A stretch of DNA of 20,566 nt from a virus: positions 1-20,566 of IMG/VR virus record IMGVR_UViG_3300001097_000097; one strand, given 5' to 3'. Positions within the stretch are counted from its first letter, which is position 1. Every line of letters begins with the position of its first letter. Position numbers and translations under genes: made by a program. Positions 11,865 to 20,566 of the stretch are shown here, one piece after another. The notes beneath the pieces are model-generated. The model worked only from the letters and a program-made list of their open reading frames with translations. It searched no databases and was not told the DNA's origin.

Positions 11865-11893
11865 TTGATTAACCATGCTAGTCTTGCTATAGT
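11865..11893 (+). promoter_or_regulatory. Diverged member of the repeated promoter family (P0)
   Basis: TTGATT and TATAGT are 17 bp apart, and the segment ATGCTAGTCTTGCTATA is identical to the promoters at 18400 and 19711. The conserved leader seen downstream of those promoters is only partly recognisable here (TTGGGATTTAG, from 11901). It would start transcription near 11900, upstream of the terminator at 12141. Confidence 0.6.
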
Positions 11894-12221: not shown

Positions 12222-12908
12222 ATGAATAGTAAAAGTCTAGTAGTTTTAAGTGGTGGACTTGATAGTACCACTAGTTTGCGCTTAGCAATTGAGGATTATG
12301 ATGAAGTAAGTGCTATTAGTTTCTTTTATAATCAAAAACAAAGTGTTGAACTTAAACTTGCAGGCGAAACTTGCAAGCGTTTAGGTGTACCGCATAAAAT
12401 TATTGATATCTCATTTTTAGGTGATATTGCTAAAAGTACATCTACTAATATTAGCGGCAGCGATATTGATATGCCAACAATCAACCACGTATTAGGTGAC
12501 CCGCAACCTGTTACCTACGTACCTAACAGAAATATGATTATGCTGTCAATAGCAGCCAGCTACGCAGAGACAAAGGGCATTAAAGATGTTATATGTGGAT
12601 TTCAAAGTAATGACACATATGGTTATCATGACACAACAACTTCCTTTTTAAGCAAAATTAATAGTGTATTGAGTGAGAATAGAACGCATACAATAACAGT
12701 ATCAGCACCATTTATCAGCTTGTCAAAGTTTGATGAAATAAAAGCGGTATATGAACTCGATGGTAATATAGACTTGTATAATACTACTATTACGTGCTAT
12801 AATCCAAATGACATTGGTGAAAGTTGTGGTGTGTGTCCATCGTGTGCTGAAAGACTAAGAGCATTTGCTGATATGGGAATGACAGACCCGATTGCATATG
12901 TAAAATAA
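12222..12908 (+). CDS. queC: 7-cyano-7-deazaguanine (preQ0) synthase QueC
   Basis: A 228-residue enzyme that makes preQ0 from 7-carboxy-7-deazaguanine, ATP and ammonia. The PP-loop SGGLDST is at residues 10-16, YNQKQ (36-40) stands where many bacterial QueC have YGQRH, VPNRN is at 100-104, and zinc is probably bound by Cys192, Cys202, Cys205 and Cys208 (SCGVCPSCAER). Length equals free-standing bacterial QueC (~230). AAGG lies eight bases before the ATG. It opens the modification cluster with gat, dpdA, queF and queE, so its product most likely enters phage DNA rather than tRNA. Unlike phages such as 9g it is not fused to a Gat domain. Confidence 0.95.
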   Translation: MNSKSLVVLSGGLDSTTSLRLAIEDYDEVSAISFFYNQKQSVELKLAGETCKRLGVPHKIIDISFLGDIAKSTSTNISGSDIDMPTINHVLGDPQPVTYVPNRNMIMLSIAASYAETKGIKDVICGFQSNDTYGYHDTTTSFLSKINSVLSENRTHTITVSAPFISLSKFDEIKAVYELDGNIDLYNTTITCYNPNDIGESCGVCPSCAERLRAFADMGMTDPIAYVK

Positions 12909-12933
12909 ATCTTAAATTATGTGGAGTATTATC

Positions 12934-13102
12934 ATGGGTATTGCAATACGTGATTATTACAGTGTTACAGAAATTCACTATTTCGTGGATGATGAAGATG
13001 GTATACAGTGACTTATGCCAAGCAGATACTAACAAGTACATTTTACAATTAATACAAACATTTGAACATGGCGCATGTAACGGTTTTGTTGAATTCTCAT
13101 AA
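12934..13102 (+). pseudogene. Small gene apparently split by a frameshift
   Basis: A GGAG site eight bases before the ATG at 12934 leads into a 25-residue frame, MGIAIRDYYSVTEIHYFVDD..., ending with TGA at 13009-13011. A different frame, open from ATG 12989 to TAA 13102, continues with protein-like sequence (VYSDLCQADTNKYILQL... to NGFVEFS). Joining them near 12998-13002 would give a ~56-residue protein. Either the gene is inactivated, the sequence has a one-base error, or two small overlapping genes exist. It sits between queC and gat with no long gaps, so the insert may be transcribed with them. Function unknown. Confidence 0.5.
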
Positions 13103-13113
13103 AGGGATATAAT

Positions 13114-13665
13114 ATGTGTGGTATATATGCAAGTTTTAACGATGAAAAATTCGAAGCATTACGATTGGTAAATAAGGTACGAGGTGTAAAAAATATTACT
13201 AAAAAAACTATCTTTATGAATGGTGTTGGATATATGATTGGACACATTCAAAGCCCAACATCTAATTCAGCACACTCGCACCCAGCAACCCTTAACCATT
13301 GCGATTCGCTGTTATGGCATAATGGTATTGTAAAAGAAAAGCAATTAGAAGAGCATTCATATATGGATTTTGGTGGATGGGATACACACTTTATTCTACA
13401 AATCATTGATACTTATGGTTTTGGTGCTCTATCTAATATTGACGGGTCTTTTGCGTGTGTGTATTATAGTAACAATGAATTATTTATTTTTAGAAATGAG
13501 ATAGCACCATTGTACATTGATATTGATTTAAATTTATCAAGTCTAAAATCGAGTGATATGGAGCTTTTACCCCCAAACAAAGTTTTTTATATTAATGATG
13601 ATAATGAACTAATTGTTGTTGCTGAGTTTACCACAAAAAATAATCCGTATAAACTAGAGGGATAA
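13114..13665 (+). CDS. Free-standing class II glutamine amidotransferase (Gat) of the modification cluster
   Basis: A 183-residue Ntn-type amidotransferase that releases ammonia from glutamine. It begins MCGI, so removal of Met exposes the catalytic Cys2; other class II features are GHIQSPTS (43-50), LWHNGIV with Asn70-Gly71, GGWD (Asp90) and IDGSFACVYY, as in the N-terminal domain of asparagine synthetase B. No synthetase domain follows. Some archaea and phages carry Gat fused to QueC, where Gat-QueC amidates preQ0 to archaeosine; here the two are separate genes. It might supply ammonia to QueC, or to a later step. AAGGGA precedes the ATG, and one base separates its stop from dpdA. The acceptor of the ammonia is unknown. 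Confidence 0.85.
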   Translation: MCGIYASFNDEKFEALRLVNKVRGVKNITKKTIFMNGVGYMIGHIQSPTSNSAHSHPATLNHCDSLLWHNGIVKEKQLEEHSYMDFGGWDTHFILQIIDTYGFGALSNIDGSFACVYYSNNELFIFRNEIAPLYIDIDLNLSSLKSSDMELLPPNKVFYINDDNELIVVAEFTTKNNPYKLEG

Positions 13666-13666
13666 C

Positions 13667-14944
13667 ATGACAGAGAAAGTAAAAATTGATTATGTATTCA
13701 GTGGCACAGGTATGCTTAAACTGATACCACCTAAGCGTCATTGTTCTGCTAAATATCGAGCTATGCGACTTAGTACAATTAAAGAAGGTGTTACACTCAT
13801 TAACAAGAACTTAAATGAGCGCCTAACAGTAATGGATGTTGGTATGAGTATTTTGTTTAATGCTTATACAGAAAGCCGTTGGGGTAACTTCTATCGAACT
13901 AGTGATAAAATTAGCTTTGATAAGCTATATGCGGATAGTGGAGGATTGCAAGTCGTAACGCGCGGTAAGCAACTTACAGACTTAATGAAAGATGAAATTT
14001 ACAAAGCACAAGATGAAGGTGATGTTGCGTTTTGTTTTGATGAAATTCCTCTTGAGAAAATGTGTGAACATACAGACCTTGCAGGTAGTAACCGAGCTGT
14101 TATATCATCAAAAATATTCAACACAAAACGTTTCGATGAATGCGCACGTAAAACCGCCGAGAACGTAAAGTATCAATTGTCACAACTTTCGCGTGCACGT
14201 ATTTCTTATATCATACAAGGTAACACGTATGAGGATATGATACGTTGGTTTGATATCGCATATGAAGTATTAGGTGATGATATTGAGAAATTACACGGTA
14301 TTGCACTTGCTGATACGTGCATGGGTAACGGGGAATTAGAAACATGTGACATGTTATATGCAGGTGCTCATATTTTTAAGACGTATACCAATCTCCCTAA
14401 AAACTTGCATTTATTGGGTGTTGGCTCAGGTAGACGTATGTTGCCTGCTATCATTTTATGCCGCAACGGTTTTATGGGTGATGTTATTTTAAGTTCTGAT
14501 AGCAGTACGCAGAGCATGCATTACATGATGGGTAAGTCGATATCATTTGATAAAAAACTAACTGATTATGAATCATTTAAAATGTTTGTTGACGAAATGG
14601 AACCTATATATTCAAAACTAATTGACAATTATGATGCAGATGAATTAGTTCGTTTTATTCTTGCAAACAACAGACAATCAGCGGCCGTTGAAGAAGTATG
14701 TTATAATCCAGAACATAGATTTCATACTATTGGTTTTTCCATATGTCCACTATATGGTATTTGGACATCGAATAAATTGTTCTTAGACATTGAGCGTATG
14801 TTAGGTGAAACGTCTTATATTACGTTATTAAACCAAGTTACTAAACTTGAGGATTATGTTGATTGGCGTAATAAAAATTATAGTAACTTACAATCAAAGC
14901 GCATTAAAAGAAAGCGCGTAACTATTTTAGACTTAATGGGATAA
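13667..14944 (+). CDS. dpdA: DpdA-type DNA guanine transglycosylase
   Basis: A 425-residue relative of tRNA-guanine transglycosylase. Phage DpdA proteins exchange guanine in DNA for a 7-deazaguanine base. Recognisable TGT-like segments are ADSGGLQVV (Asp90, base-binding/general acid position), FCFDEIPL (Asp125), SYIIQGNTYEDMI, HGIALADTCMG, LLGVGSGRRMLP and SSDSST with Asp278 where the nucleophilic Asp is expected. The CXCXXC...H zinc site of canonical TGT is absent, which is usual for phage DpdA but not diagnostic. The Lys/Arg-rich C-terminus (NLQSKRIKRKRV) may bind DNA. Neighbouring queC, gat, queF and queE strongly support DNA rather than tRNA as substrate. I cannot assign the DpdA subfamily. 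Confidence 0.9.
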   Translation: MTEKVKIDYVFSGTGMLKLIPPKRHCSAKYRAMRLSTIKEGVTLINKNLNERLTVMDVGMSILFNAYTESRWGNFYRTSDKISFDKLYADSGGLQVVTRGKQLTDLMKDEIYKAQDEGDVAFCFDEIPLEKMCEHTDLAGSNRAVISSKIFNTKRFDECARKTAENVKYQLSQLSRARISYIIQGNTYEDMIRWFDIAYEVLGDDIEKLHGIALADTCMGNGELETCDMLYAGAHIFKTYTNLPKNLHLLGVGSGRRMLPAIILCRNGFMGDVILSSDSSTQSMHYMMGKSISFDKKLTDYESFKMFVDEMEPIYSKLIDNYDADELVRFILANNRQSAAVEEVCYNPEHRFHTIGFSICPLYGIWTSNKLFLDIERMLGETSYITLLNQVTKLEDYVDWRNKNYSNLQSKRIKRKRVTILDLMG

Positions 14945-14948
14945 TTAT

Positions 14949-15830
14949 ATGAATAATTTAAATGATATTGCAAGCAAGTCACTTGGTGACAGTACCAGTT
15001 ATGCCGTGTACACTGACAAGGTTGATGCTACACTGTTAAACCCTATGCCACGCGAGCTTGCACGTGGCGACCACGATATTATTACTAGTGGTAATGGTTG
15101 TGATGTTTGGCACTGCTACGAAGCAACATTTTTAGGCGCGACAGGTATTCCGCAAGCGGGTGTTTTAAAAATCATTGTACCGCACGATAGTGAATTTATC
15201 GTTGAAAGTAAAAGTTTAAAGTTATATCTAAACACATATGATATGGTCAAGTTTGACAAGTCCACGGACTATGCCACTAGTGTTGAACGTGATATATCAT
15301 CATTATTAAATTGTCAGGTTACGGCTACATTCTTTGAGTATAGTGAATTTGAGAATGATACTATCGTAAGTCGTTATGATATACATGAGACAGTAACTAA
15401 CAGCATGTCTGTTGATTCTTATGATGGCGAATTTAGTATACCACCAGCAACTGCGGTAATTAAAGGTATTCCAATTACGCATAATATCTATATGCCAACT
15501 CTTAGAAGTCGATGCAGACATACCAAACAAAAAGACAGTGGTGCAGTCAGTATTATTATTAGAACTGGCGTAGCAGTAGATGTTACTAGTATCATGAAAT
15601 ATGTTTATTCCTTGCGGGAAGTTAATGAGTTCCACGAATTTTGTGCTGAGAAGATTTATACAGAAGTTAAAAAAGCATACGGCGGAGATGTTGCAGTGCA
15701 TTGCTTTTATGTTAGGCGTGGTGGTATTGATATTAGCCCTTGTCGCTATGATGATTTTGGTTATGATACACCTGTATTTTCGGGTTTTGGCAATAGTAAT
15801 GTATTGATTAAAGGGTTCCAAGGGCAGTAG
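14949..15830 (+). CDS. queF: preQ0 reductase QueF (long, E. coli-type)
   Basis: A 293-residue enzyme expected to reduce preQ0 to preQ1 (7-aminomethyl-7-deazaguanine) with NADPH. It is of the long two-domain form: an N-terminal half with SLGDSTSYAVYTD, VESKSLKLYLNTYD (Glu86-Ser-Lys-Ser) and a C-terminal half with TLRSRCRHTKQKDSG, where Cys189 and Asp196 occupy the positions of E. coli Cys190 and Asp197, NEFHEFCAEKIY (His229, Glu230) and RRGGIDISPCR. All catalytic residues known from E. coli QueF are therefore kept, which argues for reductase rather than amidinotransferase (QueF-L) activity. It follows dpdA by four bases. Its presence suggests that phage DNA carries preQ1 or a derivative. Confidence 0.92.
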   Translation: MNNLNDIASKSLGDSTSYAVYTDKVDATLLNPMPRELARGDHDIITSGNGCDVWHCYEATFLGATGIPQAGVLKIIVPHDSEFIVESKSLKLYLNTYDMVKFDKSTDYATSVERDISSLLNCQVTATFFEYSEFENDTIVSRYDIHETVTNSMSVDSYDGEFSIPPATAVIKGIPITHNIYMPTLRSRCRHTKQKDSGAVSIIIRTGVAVDVTSIMKYVYSLREVNEFHEFCAEKIYTEVKKAYGGDVAVHCFYVRRGGIDISPCRYDDFGYDTPVFSGFGNSNVLIKGFQGQ

Positions 15831-15837
15831 TATAACA

Positions 15838-15866
15838 GCGCTGGATATGTTATTATAGTTCAGCGC
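15838..15866 (+). other. Hairpin between queF and queE
   Basis: GCGCTG (15838-15843) and CAGCGC (15861-15866) form a GC stem with a 17-base AT-rich loop. No T-run follows, so it is not a normal terminator; it could stabilise the queF mRNA end or modulate expression of queE. Confidence 0.45.
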
Positions 15867-15895
15867 CACTACAATTAATTTAAAAGGTCGCTATT

Positions 15896-16771
15896 ATGAG
15901 TAAGAAGTTTTATATTACAGAGGTATTTTATAGTGTACAGGGCGAGGGTACGCATGTAGGCGCACCGTCAGTATTTGTACGGCTGTTTGGTTGCAACTTG
16001 CAATGTCAGGGGTTTGGTATGCCTAAGGGTGAACTAAGCAATGAGCGCGAAGACGCGTACAATATGATAACCACAAAGGACATTACTACAATTGAAGAGC
16101 TACCACTTGTGAAAACAGGTTGTGACAGCTATGTGGCGTGGGATAAACGGTTTAGACATTTGAGTGAAAAACTGACCGTTGAAGAAATCGTAGAACGTAT
16201 TGTTGATATTACACCAAACAAGTCACTTAATGGTATTCATGTTGTGTTTACTGGTGGCGAGCCAATGTTAAATCAACGATTGATTAATGATGTTTCTAGT
16301 TCACTATATCATTGGCATTCTCTTACAGACATTACAATCGAAACTAATGGTACAAAGTTACCTGATACTAATTTATGGTTAGGTTTATCGGATAAAGTCG
16401 ACGTTACATTTTCTGTCAGTCAAAAACTCGCATGTAGTGGTGAAAAAGCAGATGCGCGTATCAACTTAACAGCGCTAGATGTTTTGTTCAATCAGTTAAG
16501 GTATAAAGATGCGGTTGATTGTGTATATAAATTCGTTGTGGCTGATGAAGTTGATGCGGAAGAAGCGTTTGATATTGTTGACCAAGTGATTGACTTGGAT
16601 ACTTCATGGATATACGGTACAAGACCAACAGTATTCTTAATGCCTGTAGGTGGCACGAAAGATGATTACATCGCCAACAGCAAAGGTGTAGCTGATTTAG
16701 CGCTTGCTTATGGTGTGCACTACTCACCACGTTTGCATATTGATATCTATGGTAATGCGTGGGGTACGTAA
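15896..16771 (+). CDS. queE: 7-carboxy-7-deazaguanine synthase QueE (radical SAM) with unusual Cys spacing
   Basis: A 291-residue radical-SAM enzyme that converts 6-carboxytetrahydropterin to 7-carboxy-7-deazaguanine. YSVQGEGTHVGAPSVFVRL (12-30) is a QueE signature and FTGGEP (118-123) binds S-adenosylmethionine. The cluster loop reads FGCNLQCQGFGMP: Cys33 and Cys37 are present, but the third Cys expected two residues on is Phe40 or Gly39. The next Cys is Cys76 in KTGCDSY. A long CX3C...C arrangement, with an insert of about 38 residues, may therefore hold the [4Fe-4S] cluster. Such a variant is known to me from other phage-like QueE, but I cannot cite a structure. It ends the modification cluster. 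Confidence 0.9.
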   Translation: MSKKFYITEVFYSVQGEGTHVGAPSVFVRLFGCNLQCQGFGMPKGELSNEREDAYNMITTKDITTIEELPLVKTGCDSYVAWDKRFRHLSEKLTVEEIVERIVDITPNKSLNGIHVVFTGGEPMLNQRLINDVSSSLYHWHSLTDITIETNGTKLPDTNLWLGLSDKVDVTFSVSQKLACSGEKADARINLTALDVLFNQLRYKDAVDCVYKFVVADEVDAEEAFDIVDQVIDLDTSWIYGTRPTVFLMPVGGTKDDYIANSKGVADLALAYGVHYSPRLHIDIYGNAWGT

Positions 16772-17837: not shown

Positions 17838-18314
17838 ATGTTCATTGGGAAACAACATTGCGTTATTTGTGACATAGACGGCACACTTGCACACGAAAAA
17901 CTTAATGCTGATGGTACGCCAGTACGTGGTTGGTATGATTATGAATTAGTACATACGGACGTATTTGATACAACTATCGGTTCAATGATATATGGGTTAC
18001 ATTGTGATTTTAACGCCACTATTGTTTTCTTAACAGCGAGAGTCTTCGAATCGTTTGACGTTACTAAAAAATGGCTTGAATCATATATGTATACATATGG
18101 TTTAGAATATGGTCATGATTATGTACTGTATACACGCTCAGAAGATGATGATAGCTGCGACAGCGTATATAAGGTAAATATGATTAAGAACACAATCATA
18201 CCAACACATGGTGAGGTTATAGTTGCTTTTGAGGATAGACCTTTAGTGGTTGATAGTCTACATGATATAGGTGTTAAAGTATTTGCTGTTTCTGACCAAC
18301 GGGTAAAATTTTAA
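17838..18314 (+). CDS. HAD phosphatase related to the T4 Pnk 3'-phosphatase domain
   Basis: A 158-residue HAD-family phosphatase. Motif I is CDIDGT (Asp12 nucleophile, Asp14), motif II FLTAR (Thr66), a likely motif III Lys112, and motif IV FEDRP (Asp133). Order and spacing match the C-terminal domain of T4 polynucleotide kinase/phosphatase: DVDGTLA, then SGRE, TRKWVE (here VTKKWLE), a DDVVKEEI-like helix and IDDRTQVVEMWRRIGVE (here FEDRPLVVDSLHDIGVK). The kinase half is absent, so removal of 3'-phosphates from nucleic acid ends is the best guess. Start at 17838 has TTGGAG seven bases upstream; an upstream TTG overlaps the previous gene and is unlikely. Confidence 0.8.
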   Translation: MFIGKQHCVICDIDGTLAHEKLNADGTPVRGWYDYELVHTDVFDTTIGSMIYGLHCDFNATIVFLTARVFESFDVTKKWLESYMYTYGLEYGHDYVLYTRSEDDDSCDSVYKVNMIKNTIIPTHGEVIVAFEDRPLVVDSLHDIGVKVFAVSDQRVKF

Positions 18315-18399: not shown

Positions 18400-18428
18400 T
18401 TGACAGGCTATGCTAGTCTTGCTATAAT
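18400..18428 (+). promoter_or_regulatory. Consensus early promoter P1
   Basis: TTGACA and TATAAT are separated by 17 bp, both perfect. All 29 bases are identical to the promoter at 19711. Transcription is expected from about 18435, exactly where the conserved leader GTAGGTTGGGAAAAG begins. Confidence 0.9.
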
Positions 18429-18434
18429 TATTGC

Positions 18435-18494
18435 GTAGGTTGGGAAAAGAGGTGTTTAACCAGTCCACAAGAAATAAATTTATATTATTGGAGT
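18435..18494 (+). promoter_or_regulatory. Conserved 5' leader (copy 1)
   Basis: The leader begins with GTAGGTTGGGAAAAG, continues AGGTGTTTA and, after a variable middle, ends with AATTTATATTATTGGAGT, which contains the ribosome site. GGT-GTTTA-ACC can form a small hairpin. The same layout follows the promoter at 19711 and begins after the one at 20480. Confidence 0.8.
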
Positions 18495-18499
18495 TTAAA

Positions 18500-18817
18500 A
18501 TGAAACAGTTTTTTAACAAGAAGTTTTACAGTGACGTAGTGCCATATGAAATCGTTGAAGTAATTAGTCCTAAGAAAATACATGTCCGGGAAATGGACGC
18601 CAAACAACTCGACAAACCAGTTTACGATGATGTACATGGATTTATTAATAACAAAGACATTCGCTATGATTATTCAAGTAATGATGATAATCGTGTTGTA
18701 ACAATAACAAAACGTAAAGACGGTGAGTGGTATCAAATAGGCCAAAAGTCTGGTAAGTACGAAGTTCGTTTTACTAACAATGATAATCCTAAAAAATACT
18801 ATGATTATTCATTCTAA
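18500..18817 (+). CDS. Unknown early protein (105 aa)
   Basis: A 105-residue protein (MKQFFNKKFYSDVVPYEIVEV...). The start at 18500 follows the conserved TTGGAG leader; a longer frame from 18431 would begin inside the promoter region. VREMDAK, GEWYQIGQKSGKYEVRF and a Tyr-rich C-terminus (YYDYSF) suggest a small beta-rich domain. It is expressed from P1 and ends at a terminator, forming a one-gene transcription unit. I associate the 'PYEIVEVISPKKIHVREMDA' style with widespread phage proteins of unknown function. No enzymatic motif is seen. Confidence 0.75.
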   Translation: MKQFFNKKFYSDVVPYEIVEVISPKKIHVREMDAKQLDKPVYDDVHGFINNKDIRYDYSSNDDNRVVTITKRKDGEWYQIGQKSGKYEVRFTNNDNPKKYYDYSF

Positions 18818-18835
18818 TTTAACACGTTACGAAAG

Positions 18836-18861
18836 ACAGGTACTTAGGTGCCTGTTTTTTT
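18836..18861 (+). terminator. Rho-independent terminator
   Basis: ACAGGTAC pairs with GTGCCTGT (one G-U pair) around a TTAG loop, followed by eight T residues. It ends the P1 unit. Confidence 0.85.
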
Positions 18862-18906
18862 ATACCTTCTAATGACAAATAAATAATAGTATCAAACGGA
18901 GTATAT

Positions 18907-19323
18907 GTGTATAAATTAATTTTAGCTATAATGCTAACCATGCCAATGACGGCATACGCTGGTGGTATTGATTGTATGGCAAAAGCTATCTATTTTGAGA
19001 GTAGGGGTGGGACAGACAACGACCAGTTAGCAGTAGCGCATACAGTGCAGAATAGAGTTAAAAGTAAACAGTTTCCAAACAGTGTTTGCAGTGTAGTTCG
19101 ACAGAAATCACAGTTTGCCCCTCATATTAGAAGTGGTGCAGCAATACGTGAAAAAAGCGCTTGGAGCAAGGCTAAAACATTGGCACGTAAAGTTATAAGC
19201 GGTAGTTCACGCGATTTTACTGGAAACAGTTTATATTTTCACACACCAGCCGTCAATCCACAGTGGTCGAATATGTTTAAAGTTACATATCGAAATAATC
19301 AACATATTTTTTATAAACCATAG
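18907..19323 (+). CDS. SleB-type cell wall hydrolase (endolysin) with signal peptide
   Basis: A 138-residue protein of the Hydrolase_2/SleB family, expected to cut peptidoglycan glycan strands and release progeny. Residues 1-18 (MYKLILAIMLTMPMTAYA) form a Sec signal with an AYA cleavage site, so it would be exported without needing a pore-type holin. The mature part has CMAKAIYFESRGG with candidate catalytic Glu31, LAVAHTVQNRVKSKQFPNSV, SVVRQKSQFA and YFHTP. The start codon is GTG with GGAG six bases upstream; no ATG gives a better match. No holin or spanin is seen next to it. Lysis late in infection is inferred, although its neighbours look early. Confidence 0.88.
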   Translation: MYKLILAIMLTMPMTAYAGGIDCMAKAIYFESRGGTDNDQLAVAHTVQNRVKSKQFPNSVCSVVRQKSQFAPHIRSGAAIREKSAWSKAKTLARKVISGSSRDFTGNSLYFHTPAVNPQWSNMFKVTYRNNQHIFYKP

Positions 19324-19330
19324 GTAAGTT

Positions 19331-19654
19331 ATGCATACAAACGATTTCGACAAGGTTAAAATCGTGTTTGGTCTTACTACTAATGAGCTTGAACATGCTT
19401 TAAGTGGTAAGGATAAGAGTGATAAGTTTGCATTGTATATGACAGCAATTGACCACGAATATAATAGCATACACATATTCAAACGTCATGATTTTAACAT
19501 GCATACACAGTTTATGGATATACGTGGATATACCACTTTGTATCAACTGCTATGTAAGAGCCCATATACAATGCGTGATGATAAGGAACTTTTTCATTTT
19601 ATTAGTAATCGTGTATGCGCAAGTAGAACACTACTTAAAGATGAACATTTATAA
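19331..19654 (+). CDS. Unknown protein (107 aa)
   Basis: A 107-residue protein, MHTNDFDKVKIVFGLTTNEL..., rich in His, Asp and Tyr, with no recognised motif. It starts seven bases after the endolysin stop, with a modest AGGTAAGT site, and ends before a terminator, so it probably shares the endolysin transcript. It has no signal peptide or membrane segment, which makes a holin function unlikely. Confidence 0.6.
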   Translation: MHTNDFDKVKIVFGLTTNELEHALSGKDKSDKFALYMTAIDHEYNSIHIFKRHDFNMHTQFMDIRGYTTLYQLLCKSPYTMRDDKELFHFISNRVCASRTLLKDEHL

Positions 19655-19673
19655 TTCACAATAAGTTACATTT

Positions 19674-19698
19674 ATGTCCTTAAATAAGGGCATTTTTT
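19674..19698 (+). terminator. Rho-independent terminator
   Basis: ATGTCCTT pairs with AAGGGCAT (one G-U pair) around AAAT, followed by six T residues. It separates the endolysin unit from promoter P2. Confidence 0.85.
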
Positions 19699-19710
19699 GT
19701 GGCTGTATGG

Positions 19711-19739
19711 TTGACAGGCTATGCTAGTCTTGCTATAAT
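19711..19739 (+). promoter_or_regulatory. Consensus early promoter P2
   Basis: TTGACA, 17 bp, TATAAT; identical over 29 bases to P1 at 18400. The conserved leader begins at 19746, seven bases after the -10. Confidence 0.9.
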
Positions 19740-19745
19740 GTATTT

Positions 19746-19807
19746 GTAGGTTGGGAAAAGAGGTGTTTACCGCCACTCAACAAACAATTAATTTATATTA
19801 TTGGAGT
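19746..19807 (+). promoter_or_regulatory. Conserved 5' leader (copy 2)
   Basis: Same as copy 1: GTAGGTTGGGAAAAG then AGGTGTTTA, a variable middle and AATTTATATTATTGGAGT at 19790-19807. Outside the shared blocks the copies differ, showing selection for the blocks. Confidence 0.8.
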
Positions 19808-19812
19808 TACAT

Positions 19813-20078
19813 ATGTTTGATAAAAATCTAGCTAAACTAAACGAAGGTCGTGTTGGACTTAATGGACTTAATGGACTTAATGGTGTTAACGGAAAAGGTG
19901 AAATTCACGATGACGTTAAAATCATAGAATCAAATAATTTTAGATTTACGTATGCGTATGAATTAGGTGAAAAAGTTGAAATAATTTCTAAGTCCGCTTG
20001 GGTGATGATTTTTCATTAAGCTTTAATAAAGGCAAAGAATTAGATAGTATTATAGATATTCTACAGTCAATGAAATAA
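19813..20078 (+). pseudogene. Small early gene apparently frameshifted near its middle
   Basis: The zero frame starts at ATG 19813 behind TTGGAG and gives 68 residues ending at 20019 (…KSAWVMIFH). In the -1 frame, from about 19990, good coding sequence continues: VRLGDDFSLSFNKGKELDSI then IDILQSMK, ending at TAA 20076-20078 just where the next conserved leader begins. A single-base change near 19988-19994 would join them into a protein of ~87 residues. No standard slippery heptamer is seen. The N-terminal part carries an LNG tripeptide repeat. Function unknown; the intact zero-frame product may still be made. Confidence 0.5.
19855..19890 (+). repeat. 9-bp tandem repeat encoding (L/V)NG
   Basis: GGACTTAAT occurs three times in a row and is followed by the variant GGTGTTAAC, giving GLN-GLN-GLN-GVN. 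Exact copies suggest recent slippage; changes in copy number keep the reading frame. Confidence 0.85.
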
Positions 20079-20094
20079 TTTATATTATTGGAGT
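20077..20094 (+). promoter_or_regulatory. Conserved ribosome-site leader (copy 3, no promoter)
   Basis: AATTTATATTATTGGAGT, 18 bases identical to the ends of leader copies 1 and 2, lies between the frameshifted gene and the gene at 20100. No promoter precedes it directly, so this block alone may serve translation. Confidence 0.75.
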
Positions 20095-20099
20095 ATATT

Positions 20100-20456
20100 A
20101 TGAGTAACAAATATTCAGTTGAAGAATTACAGTTTATGTTTAATGAGGGTTTCCGTAAAGCAGAAAATGCTTGTTTAGCCTATCTTGCTCAACATGGTAG
20201 CAATGGCAGTTGTGGTTTTGCGTGGGTTGTTATTGATAAGTTTAATGATAAGAACATTGATGGTCGTCAGAAGATTGCGAAGGACCTTAAGAAGTTAGAT
20301 TGTATCCCTGACAGTAGCGTAGGTGAAATAACTGTATGGAATCCTTCTAAATCCTCAACACAGTGCATATCAGCGTTAGAGGCAGGTGCGAGAGCATTTG
20401 CTAAACACTTAGAACCATTTGGTTTTTATGCTTTTATGGATTCACGTGTTGATTAA
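20100..20456 (+). CDS. Unknown phage protein with CGFAWV motif (118 aa)
   Basis: A 118-residue protein whose start at 20100 follows the TTGGAG leader; an earlier start at 20088 would lie inside the ribosome site. The blocks GSCGFAWVVI (~37-46), a middle ITVWNPS, then ALEAGARAFAKHLEPFGF and a final DSRVD match a pattern that I recall from many unrelated phages (CGFAWV ... WNPS ... EAGA ... SR.D), whose function is unknown. It shares the P2 transcript. Confidence 0.75.
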   Translation: MSNKYSVEELQFMFNEGFRKAENACLAYLAQHGSNGSCGFAWVVIDKFNDKNIDGRQKIAKDLKKLDCIPDSSVGEITVWNPSKSSTQCISALEAGARAFAKHLEPFGFYAFMDSRVD

Positions 20457-20479
20457 TTACACACTGTTACAATTACAAC

Positions 20480-20508
20480 TTGACCTTACCTACAGATATT
20501 GCTATAAT
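20480..20508 (+). promoter_or_regulatory. Early promoter P3
   Basis: TTGACC, 17 bp, TATAAT. The spacer differs from P1 and P2 except for its last bases (TTGC), but GTAGGTTGGGAAAAG again begins seven bases after the -10 (20515). Confidence 0.85.
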
Positions 20509-20514
20509 GTATTT

Positions 20515-20566
20515 GTAGGTTGGGAAAAGGGCAGTTTATGCCAACATACAAATCACTTATTTATAT
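20515..20566 (+). promoter_or_regulatory. Conserved 5' leader (copy 4), cut by window edge
   Basis: GTAGGTTGGGAAAAG is followed by GGCAGTTTATGCC, a perfect four-base-pair hairpin with the same GTTTA loop as copy 1 but a different stem. The window ends in TTATTTATAT, probably the start of the AATTTATATTATTGGAGT block for a gene further right. Confidence 0.7.

Follow-up and report, generated by a model that had tools for sequence, protein, structure and literature searches.

A promoter cassette family with a leader sequence locked to the predicted transcript start in a T4-like phage lineage

T4-like phages are believed to acquire and exchange small genes for host takeover by means of early-promoter cassettes. 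PeSLs (promoter-early stem-loops) of the T4-like phages RB49/phi1 and KVP40/nt-1 are said to have been described by Arbiol in 2010 and by Comeau in 2014. In Cluster K mycobacteriophages, start-associated sequences are short repeats that stand close to the translation start of many small genes. According to PMC4503421, in which the PeSL work is cited, a PeSL is a composite cassette of an early promoter and a terminator that is implicated in gene shuffling and recombination of T4-like phages. Early promoters of T4-like phages are documented for RB69, RB43, RB49, 44RR, Aeh1 and T4 (Nolan 2006, PMC1524935), and the predictions made for RB49 match mapped 5' ends (PMC1524935). At the N25 promoter of phage T5, the initial transcribed sequence modulates productive initiation (PMC12464699).

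The DNA analyzed here, termed the window, is a stretch of 20,566 bases that constitutes an entire virus record. The phage is T4-like as the window encodes a gp41-type helicase (phrog_19, E 6.9e-92); a baseplate-hub protein is also encoded. The window contains genes for 7-deazaguanine synthesis at 12222-16771 (QueC 12222-12908, a glutamine-amidotransferase-like gene 13114-13665, QueF 14949-15830 and a QueE-like gene 15896-16771), which suggests that DNA or tRNA contains a modified guanine; amid these genes, 13667-14944 encodes a protein of 425 aa that belongs to phrog_10773 (function unknown). A protein with a PNKP-type phosphatase domain and no kinase part is encoded at 17838-18314 (PF25109, polynucleotide kinase PHROGs).

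Promoters P1, P2 and P3 at the right end of the window

Three rightward promoters precede small genes at the right end of the window, at positions 18400 (P1), 19711 (P2) and 20480 (P3). They match the sigma-70 consensus at 12/12, 12/12 and 11/12 positions, respectively, rank as the top 3 among the 16 promoter-like sites of the region, and each of them has a 17-nt spacer and a TG before the -10 box. The +1 position of these and of all other cassettes was predicted from promoter spacing. An earlier note on this DNA had claimed that P1 and P2 are identical over 29 bases, that P3 shares the -10 box and the start, and that a leader sequence begins at the expected transcript start of all three promoters. 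These claims were borne out. The 29 bases common to P1 and P2 are TTGACAGGCTATGCTAGTCTTGCTATAAT, to which 24 bases from +1 (GTAGGTTGGGAAAAGAGGTGTTTA) can be added, and the -10 region and the +1 block of P3 are in common with those of P2. In P1, P2 and P3, GTAGGTTGGGAAAAG begins exactly at the predicted +1, 6 nt past TATAAT; the leader 15-mer has exactly 3 occurrences in the window, each located 6 nt after TATAAT. The features are the following, all on the plus strand:

11865-11893: leaderless related promoter; TTGATT, 17-nt spacer with ATGCTAGTCTTGC as in P1/P2, TATAGT; before a rightward gene block
18400-18428: P1 promoter; TTGACA 18400-18405, 17 nt, TATAAT 18423-18428; 12/12 consensus
18435-18458: P1 leader block GTAGGTTGGGAAAAGAGGTGTTTA, from the predicted +1; identical in P2 and in the cassettes at 18213 (plus strand) and 32236 (minus strand) of the related contig G001
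18477-18494: P1 ribosome-site block AATTTATATTATTGGAGT
18500-18817: P1 gene, 105 aa; weak match to phrog_33370 (function unknown)
19674-19693: terminator-like hairpin with TTTTT behind it; lies 17 nt upstream of the -35 box of P2; 1 found against 1.0 expected by shuffling
19711-19739: P2 promoter; TTGACA, 17 nt, TATAAT 19734-19739; 12/12 consensus
19746-19769: P2 leader block, from the predicted +1
19790-19807: P2 ribosome-site block
19813-20019: P2 first gene, 68 aa; no family match
20077-20094: third copy of the ribosome-site block; serves the second P2 gene, not P3
20100-20456: P2 second gene, 118 aa; weak match to phrog_22149 (function unknown)
20480-20508: P3 promoter; TTGACC, 17 nt, TATAAT 20503-20508; 11/12 consensus
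20515-20538: P3 leader block GTAGGTTGGGAAAAGGGCAGTTTA; the window ends before its ribosome site and gene

The leaderless promoter at 11865-11893 has 17 bases (ATGCTAGTCTTGCTATA) in common with P1/P2 across the spacer and the -10 box. Two further observations concern the genes of this region: a 9-bp tandem repeat, TGGACTTAA, is present in the first gene of P2 (19854-19889) and encodes Gly-Leu-Asn repeats, and a cell wall hydrolase of 138 aa (PF07486, 18907-19323) with a signal-peptide-like start is encoded between P1 and P2 among small early-type genes.

The claim that a second block carries the ribosome site in all three cassettes was confirmed for two of them. AATTTATATTATTGGAGT is located directly before the ATG in P1 and P2. 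P3 ends with the window at ...ATTTATAT, before any ribosome-site block, and the copy at 20077-20094 serves the internal gene 20100-20456 as ribosome site and has no cassette promoter immediately before it. Ribosome sites of the TATTGGAG type precede about 20 of the 171 ORFs, many of them without a leader; the window phage uses the block as a general ribosome site.

A ten-copy cassette family and its conservation

Scanning IMG/VR for the leader 15-mer returned 48 stretches, which in context came down to 2 related contigs, G001 and G002; the other matches had unrelated contexts and were discarded as chance. G001 is 96,886 bases long and G002 is near-identical to it. The ORFs of G001 are those of a partial T4-like genome, with capsid, portal, terminase, tail sheath, recombination and replication genes, and its gp23 is about 52% identical to the gp23 of Xanthomonas phage X1 and Stenotrophomonas phage Moby. 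No proteins are common to the window and G001, and the reading of the window as an overlapping fragment of G001 was rejected; the two may represent the same phage or sister phages. With regard to other genes of G001, the ORF of the terminase large subunit (L108 6656-7873) opens with an intein-like sequence ending in ...SNGILSHNC, a putative intein, and the DNA polymerase is seemingly split over several ORFs with other genes between them (L106 3690-12709, minus strand).

The motif search beyond the window, proposed in the earlier note as a check, yielded 7 further copies of the cassette, all in G001: 18213, 18958, 22070, 51887 and 52246 on the plus strand and 32236 and 33728 on the minus strand. 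When scored with a PWM made from the ten copies of the window and G001, these copies reach 46-73 bits and the next site in either sequence, the leaderless promoter at 11865-11893, reaches 11 bits; as the PWM was built from the same ten copies, this gap reflects the absence of intermediate copies and is no independent discovery. All ten copies consist of TTGAC, a 17-nt spacer, TATA(A/G/C)T, a 6-nt gap and the leader, in constant order and spacing. Two subtypes could be distinguished. The long-leader copies (P1, P2, P3, 18213 and 32236) have the same 15-mer and, where a ribosome site is visible, a leader-to-site distance of 57-78 nt, and the five short-leader copies have a distance of 36-40 nt and diverge past +11. 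Across the cassettes, 2-8 nt separate the ribosome site from the ATG. The proteins encoded downstream of the cassettes have 31-118 aa and are mutually non-homologous, and simple gene duplication was thus rejected as the origin of the cassette repeats.

Conservation was then considered along the cassette. Measured over the ten copies, which come from the window and one related genome (G001/G002 being near-identical) and are thus mostly paralogous and partly the result of recent copying, information per position amounts to 1.65-1.70 bits from +1 to +11, about 0.6 bits in the spacer, 0.8-0.9 bits in the gap from -6 to -1 and 0.4 bits upstream. The highest value among 144 upstream windows of 11 columns is 0.60 bits, compared to 1.65 bits for +1 to +11. 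Mean pairwise identity is 0.75 over +1 to +15; the spacer reaches 0.39 and the gap 0.46. Because the spacer and the gap diverged while +1 to +11 remained conserved, the leader was not merely copied together with the promoter. The distance from the leader to the ribosome site varies from 36 to 78 nt, yet the phase of the leader relative to the promoter is exact; this variable distance speaks against one rigid RNA structure. From this pattern of conservation, the transcript start appears to be under selection beyond mere copying. The proposal of the earlier note that the 5' RNA end itself is selected is upheld in so far as conservation passes the promoter and is locked to the predicted +1, and it is not supported with respect to a conserved RNA fold.

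Repeated leaders at +1 in other phages

Generality was assessed with a test that is not tuned to the leader: promoters with a downstream ribosome site and ATG were collected, and pairs sharing a 10-mer (one mismatch) at equal offset were counted. G001 and the window together gave 7 pairs at +1, 0 at -60 to -90 and 0 at +40 to +95. For RB49, the corresponding numbers were 70, 0-1 and 0, and for Pseudoalteromonas phage XG4 444 pairs were counted at +1 compared to about 20. T4 gave 1 of 78 pairs at +1, KVP40 gave 1 and Moby 0. With a looser promoter definition, the early promoters of KVP40 and RB49, which are distant T4-like phages, both carry ATCGAAACGA from +1. No copies of a leader of the window/G001 type were found in X1, Moby, ACP17, XG4, KVP40, RB49 or T4, and the closest cultured relatives (X1, Moby and ACP17) are without such a cassette family.

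A relaxed pattern search identified two more uncultured phage groups with repeated +1 leaders of their own. In the group G003/G005/G006, a repeated early-type promoter (CTTGACACTCCACCCC...TATAATATAAGT) is followed by the hairpin leader GAAGGTTGGGAATTC, the stems of which vary on both sides and are still paired (e.g. UUGGGA/UCCCGA and UUAGGA/UCCUGA). The leaders of G004 (AGAGGTTAGGAAA...) form hairpins with differing stems. On its minus strand, the segment 13977-17049 (L293) contains five promoters whose leaders are of the AGAGGTTAGGA type and all have a hairpin of 4-6 bp near the 5' end; the hairpin is followed by a ACAACACA-like sequence and an AGGAGG-type ribosome site. An AGGTT(A/G)GGA core common to window/G001, G003/G005/G006 and G004 was considered and rejected; the latter two were found with a pattern holding most of the core. 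Convergence on this core is not supported beyond search bias, a G being present at the free fifth position in only 3 of about 8 independent noncoding matches. Combined, these results indicate that repeated +1-locked leaders are present in several phages, sometimes structured and often not.

Possible roles of the leader and relation to known systems

The reading that we favor, with a probability of roughly 0.6, is that of a duplicated early-expression cassette in which the leader is kept by selection for promoter escape and early mRNA performance. The cassette is made of a near-consensus host sigma-70 promoter, the leader block at +1, a variable spacer and an A+U-rich ribosome site, TATTATTGGAGT. 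Duplication and recombination would have placed copies before small genes that are unrelated and have no known function, in the variable part of the genome, and host RNA polymerase would read them at once upon infection, an early timing that is suggested by the match to the consensus. Selection on the transcript start itself would preserve the block from +1 to about +24, the initial transcribed sequence and the 5' UTR most likely providing fast promoter escape and a stable, well-translated early mRNA. The effects of initial transcribed sequence established at T5 N25 speak for this reading, which is the mildest explanation of the leader. Effects of the leader on promoter escape and effects through the 5' UTR are inseparable by sequence. 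A shuffled cassette would fit both the unrelated contexts of the copies and the known PeSL system; no exchange event was seen in the window, G001 and the near-identical G002.

It is possible but unlikely that an RNA-binding factor of phage or host recognizes the leader, which would then act in early mRNA protection, decay or translation control like a general operator of the RegA or CsrA type. This reading is consistent with the conservation of primary sequence rather than of a fold, with the GGA that most leaders contain and that recurs in the ribosome site, and with the RegA homologue encoded by G001 (PF01818, E 6.9e-30). RegA sites are A+U-rich, unstructured and near the AUG (PMC3014915), a character closer to that of the ribosome-site block than to that of the +1 block, and known sites are at the AUG, not at +1. 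Moreover, RegB and CsrA genes were not found in the incomplete record of G001, and the leader is without an Rfam match.

We consider it quite improbable that the cassettes are conserved mainly because they were copied recently and serve as homology patches for PeSL-like cassette exchange, the leader RNA being without function. P1 and P2 are 92% identical over 59 nt, P3 and the G001 cassette at 18213 are alike also upstream of the -35 box, unrelated genes are flanked by cassettes, and PeSL recombination is described in T4-like phages (work cited in PMC4503421). Pure copying would preserve all parts equally, and the spacer and the gap have diverged while the -10 box and the +1 block have not; with such uneven divergence along the cassette, pure copying without function is a poor fit.

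RNA structure bears on the proposal, to which we give little credence, that the leader is a 5'-terminal stem-loop shielding the mRNA from 5'-end-dependent decay. In the five long leaders, pairing close to the 5' end is possible between GUUGGG and either CUCAAC or CCAAC (P paired about 0.75; Fisher p 0.03, with copies that are non-independent), and the hairpins in the repeated +1 leaders of G003/G005/G006 and G004 agree with such a role. The 5'-proximal stem of the long leaders is weak. The folding analysis that the earlier note had suggested gave no excess folding over all ten leaders (Fisher p 0.22). The hairpin is confined to the long leaders, the short leaders are mostly unpaired, and the leaders of RB49, KVP40 and XG4 are unstructured. 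A covariance-model search of Rfam at the leaders gave no match, even at E 5. A conserved RNA fold is not supported, and membership in a known RNA family was rejected. The odds are also poor for a private 5'-end tag at +1 in each phage lineage, read by a dedicated phage or host factor favoring phage early mRNA, in which case the leaders GUAGGUUGGGAAAAG (window/G001) and AUCGAAACGA (RB49/KVP40), that of XG4 and those of the two other groups would be versions of one strategy.

The family provides a clean case in which conservation covers the first RNA bases and spares those immediately preceding +1, and several phage lineages show this pattern with other sequences. It makes testable, in a laboratory phage such as RB49, the question of whether promoter escape, the stability of the mRNA, its translation or recombination is the reason for which multi-copy early promoters keep a +1 leader.

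Among the known systems, PeSLs have in common with the window/G001 family many strong sigma-70 early promoter modules (TTGAC, 17 nt and a TATA-type -10 box in all ten copies here) located before unrelated small genes in variable regions. The RB49 and KVP40 copies also have a common leader from +1, ATCGAAACGA..., and they differ in that the leader sequence of the window/G001 family is its own. Strong terminators were detected at -100 to -1 in 2 of the 10 copies (0.5 expected), compared to 12 of 30 tested copies in the RB49 positive control (0.9 expected), with a mean fold z of -1.94 in RB49 and -0.60 in window/G001. Because the stem-loop is absent in 8 of the 10 copies, the family was not filed as PeSL, though it is PeSL-like in its working. 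As with the early promoters of T4-like phages, near which it stands by its T4-like genomes (gp41-type helicase in the window, gp23 in G001), it comprises predicted host-polymerase promoters before putative early and novel ORFs with a lineage-specific consensus; T4 itself differs by having little +1 sequence in common in the same pair test. The likeness to T5 N25 is that sequence from +1 on contributes to promoter output there; N25 is a measured promoter, whereas a function of the window/G001 leader is suggested by conservation alone. The start-associated repeats of Cluster K are tied to the start codon, whereas the window/G001 leader is tied to the transcript start. In conclusion, early-promoter cassettes are already known in T4-like phages and the RNA-start sequence of the window/G001 lineage is its own; the family is a lineage-specific version of a known kind, to which PeSL cassettes are the closest.
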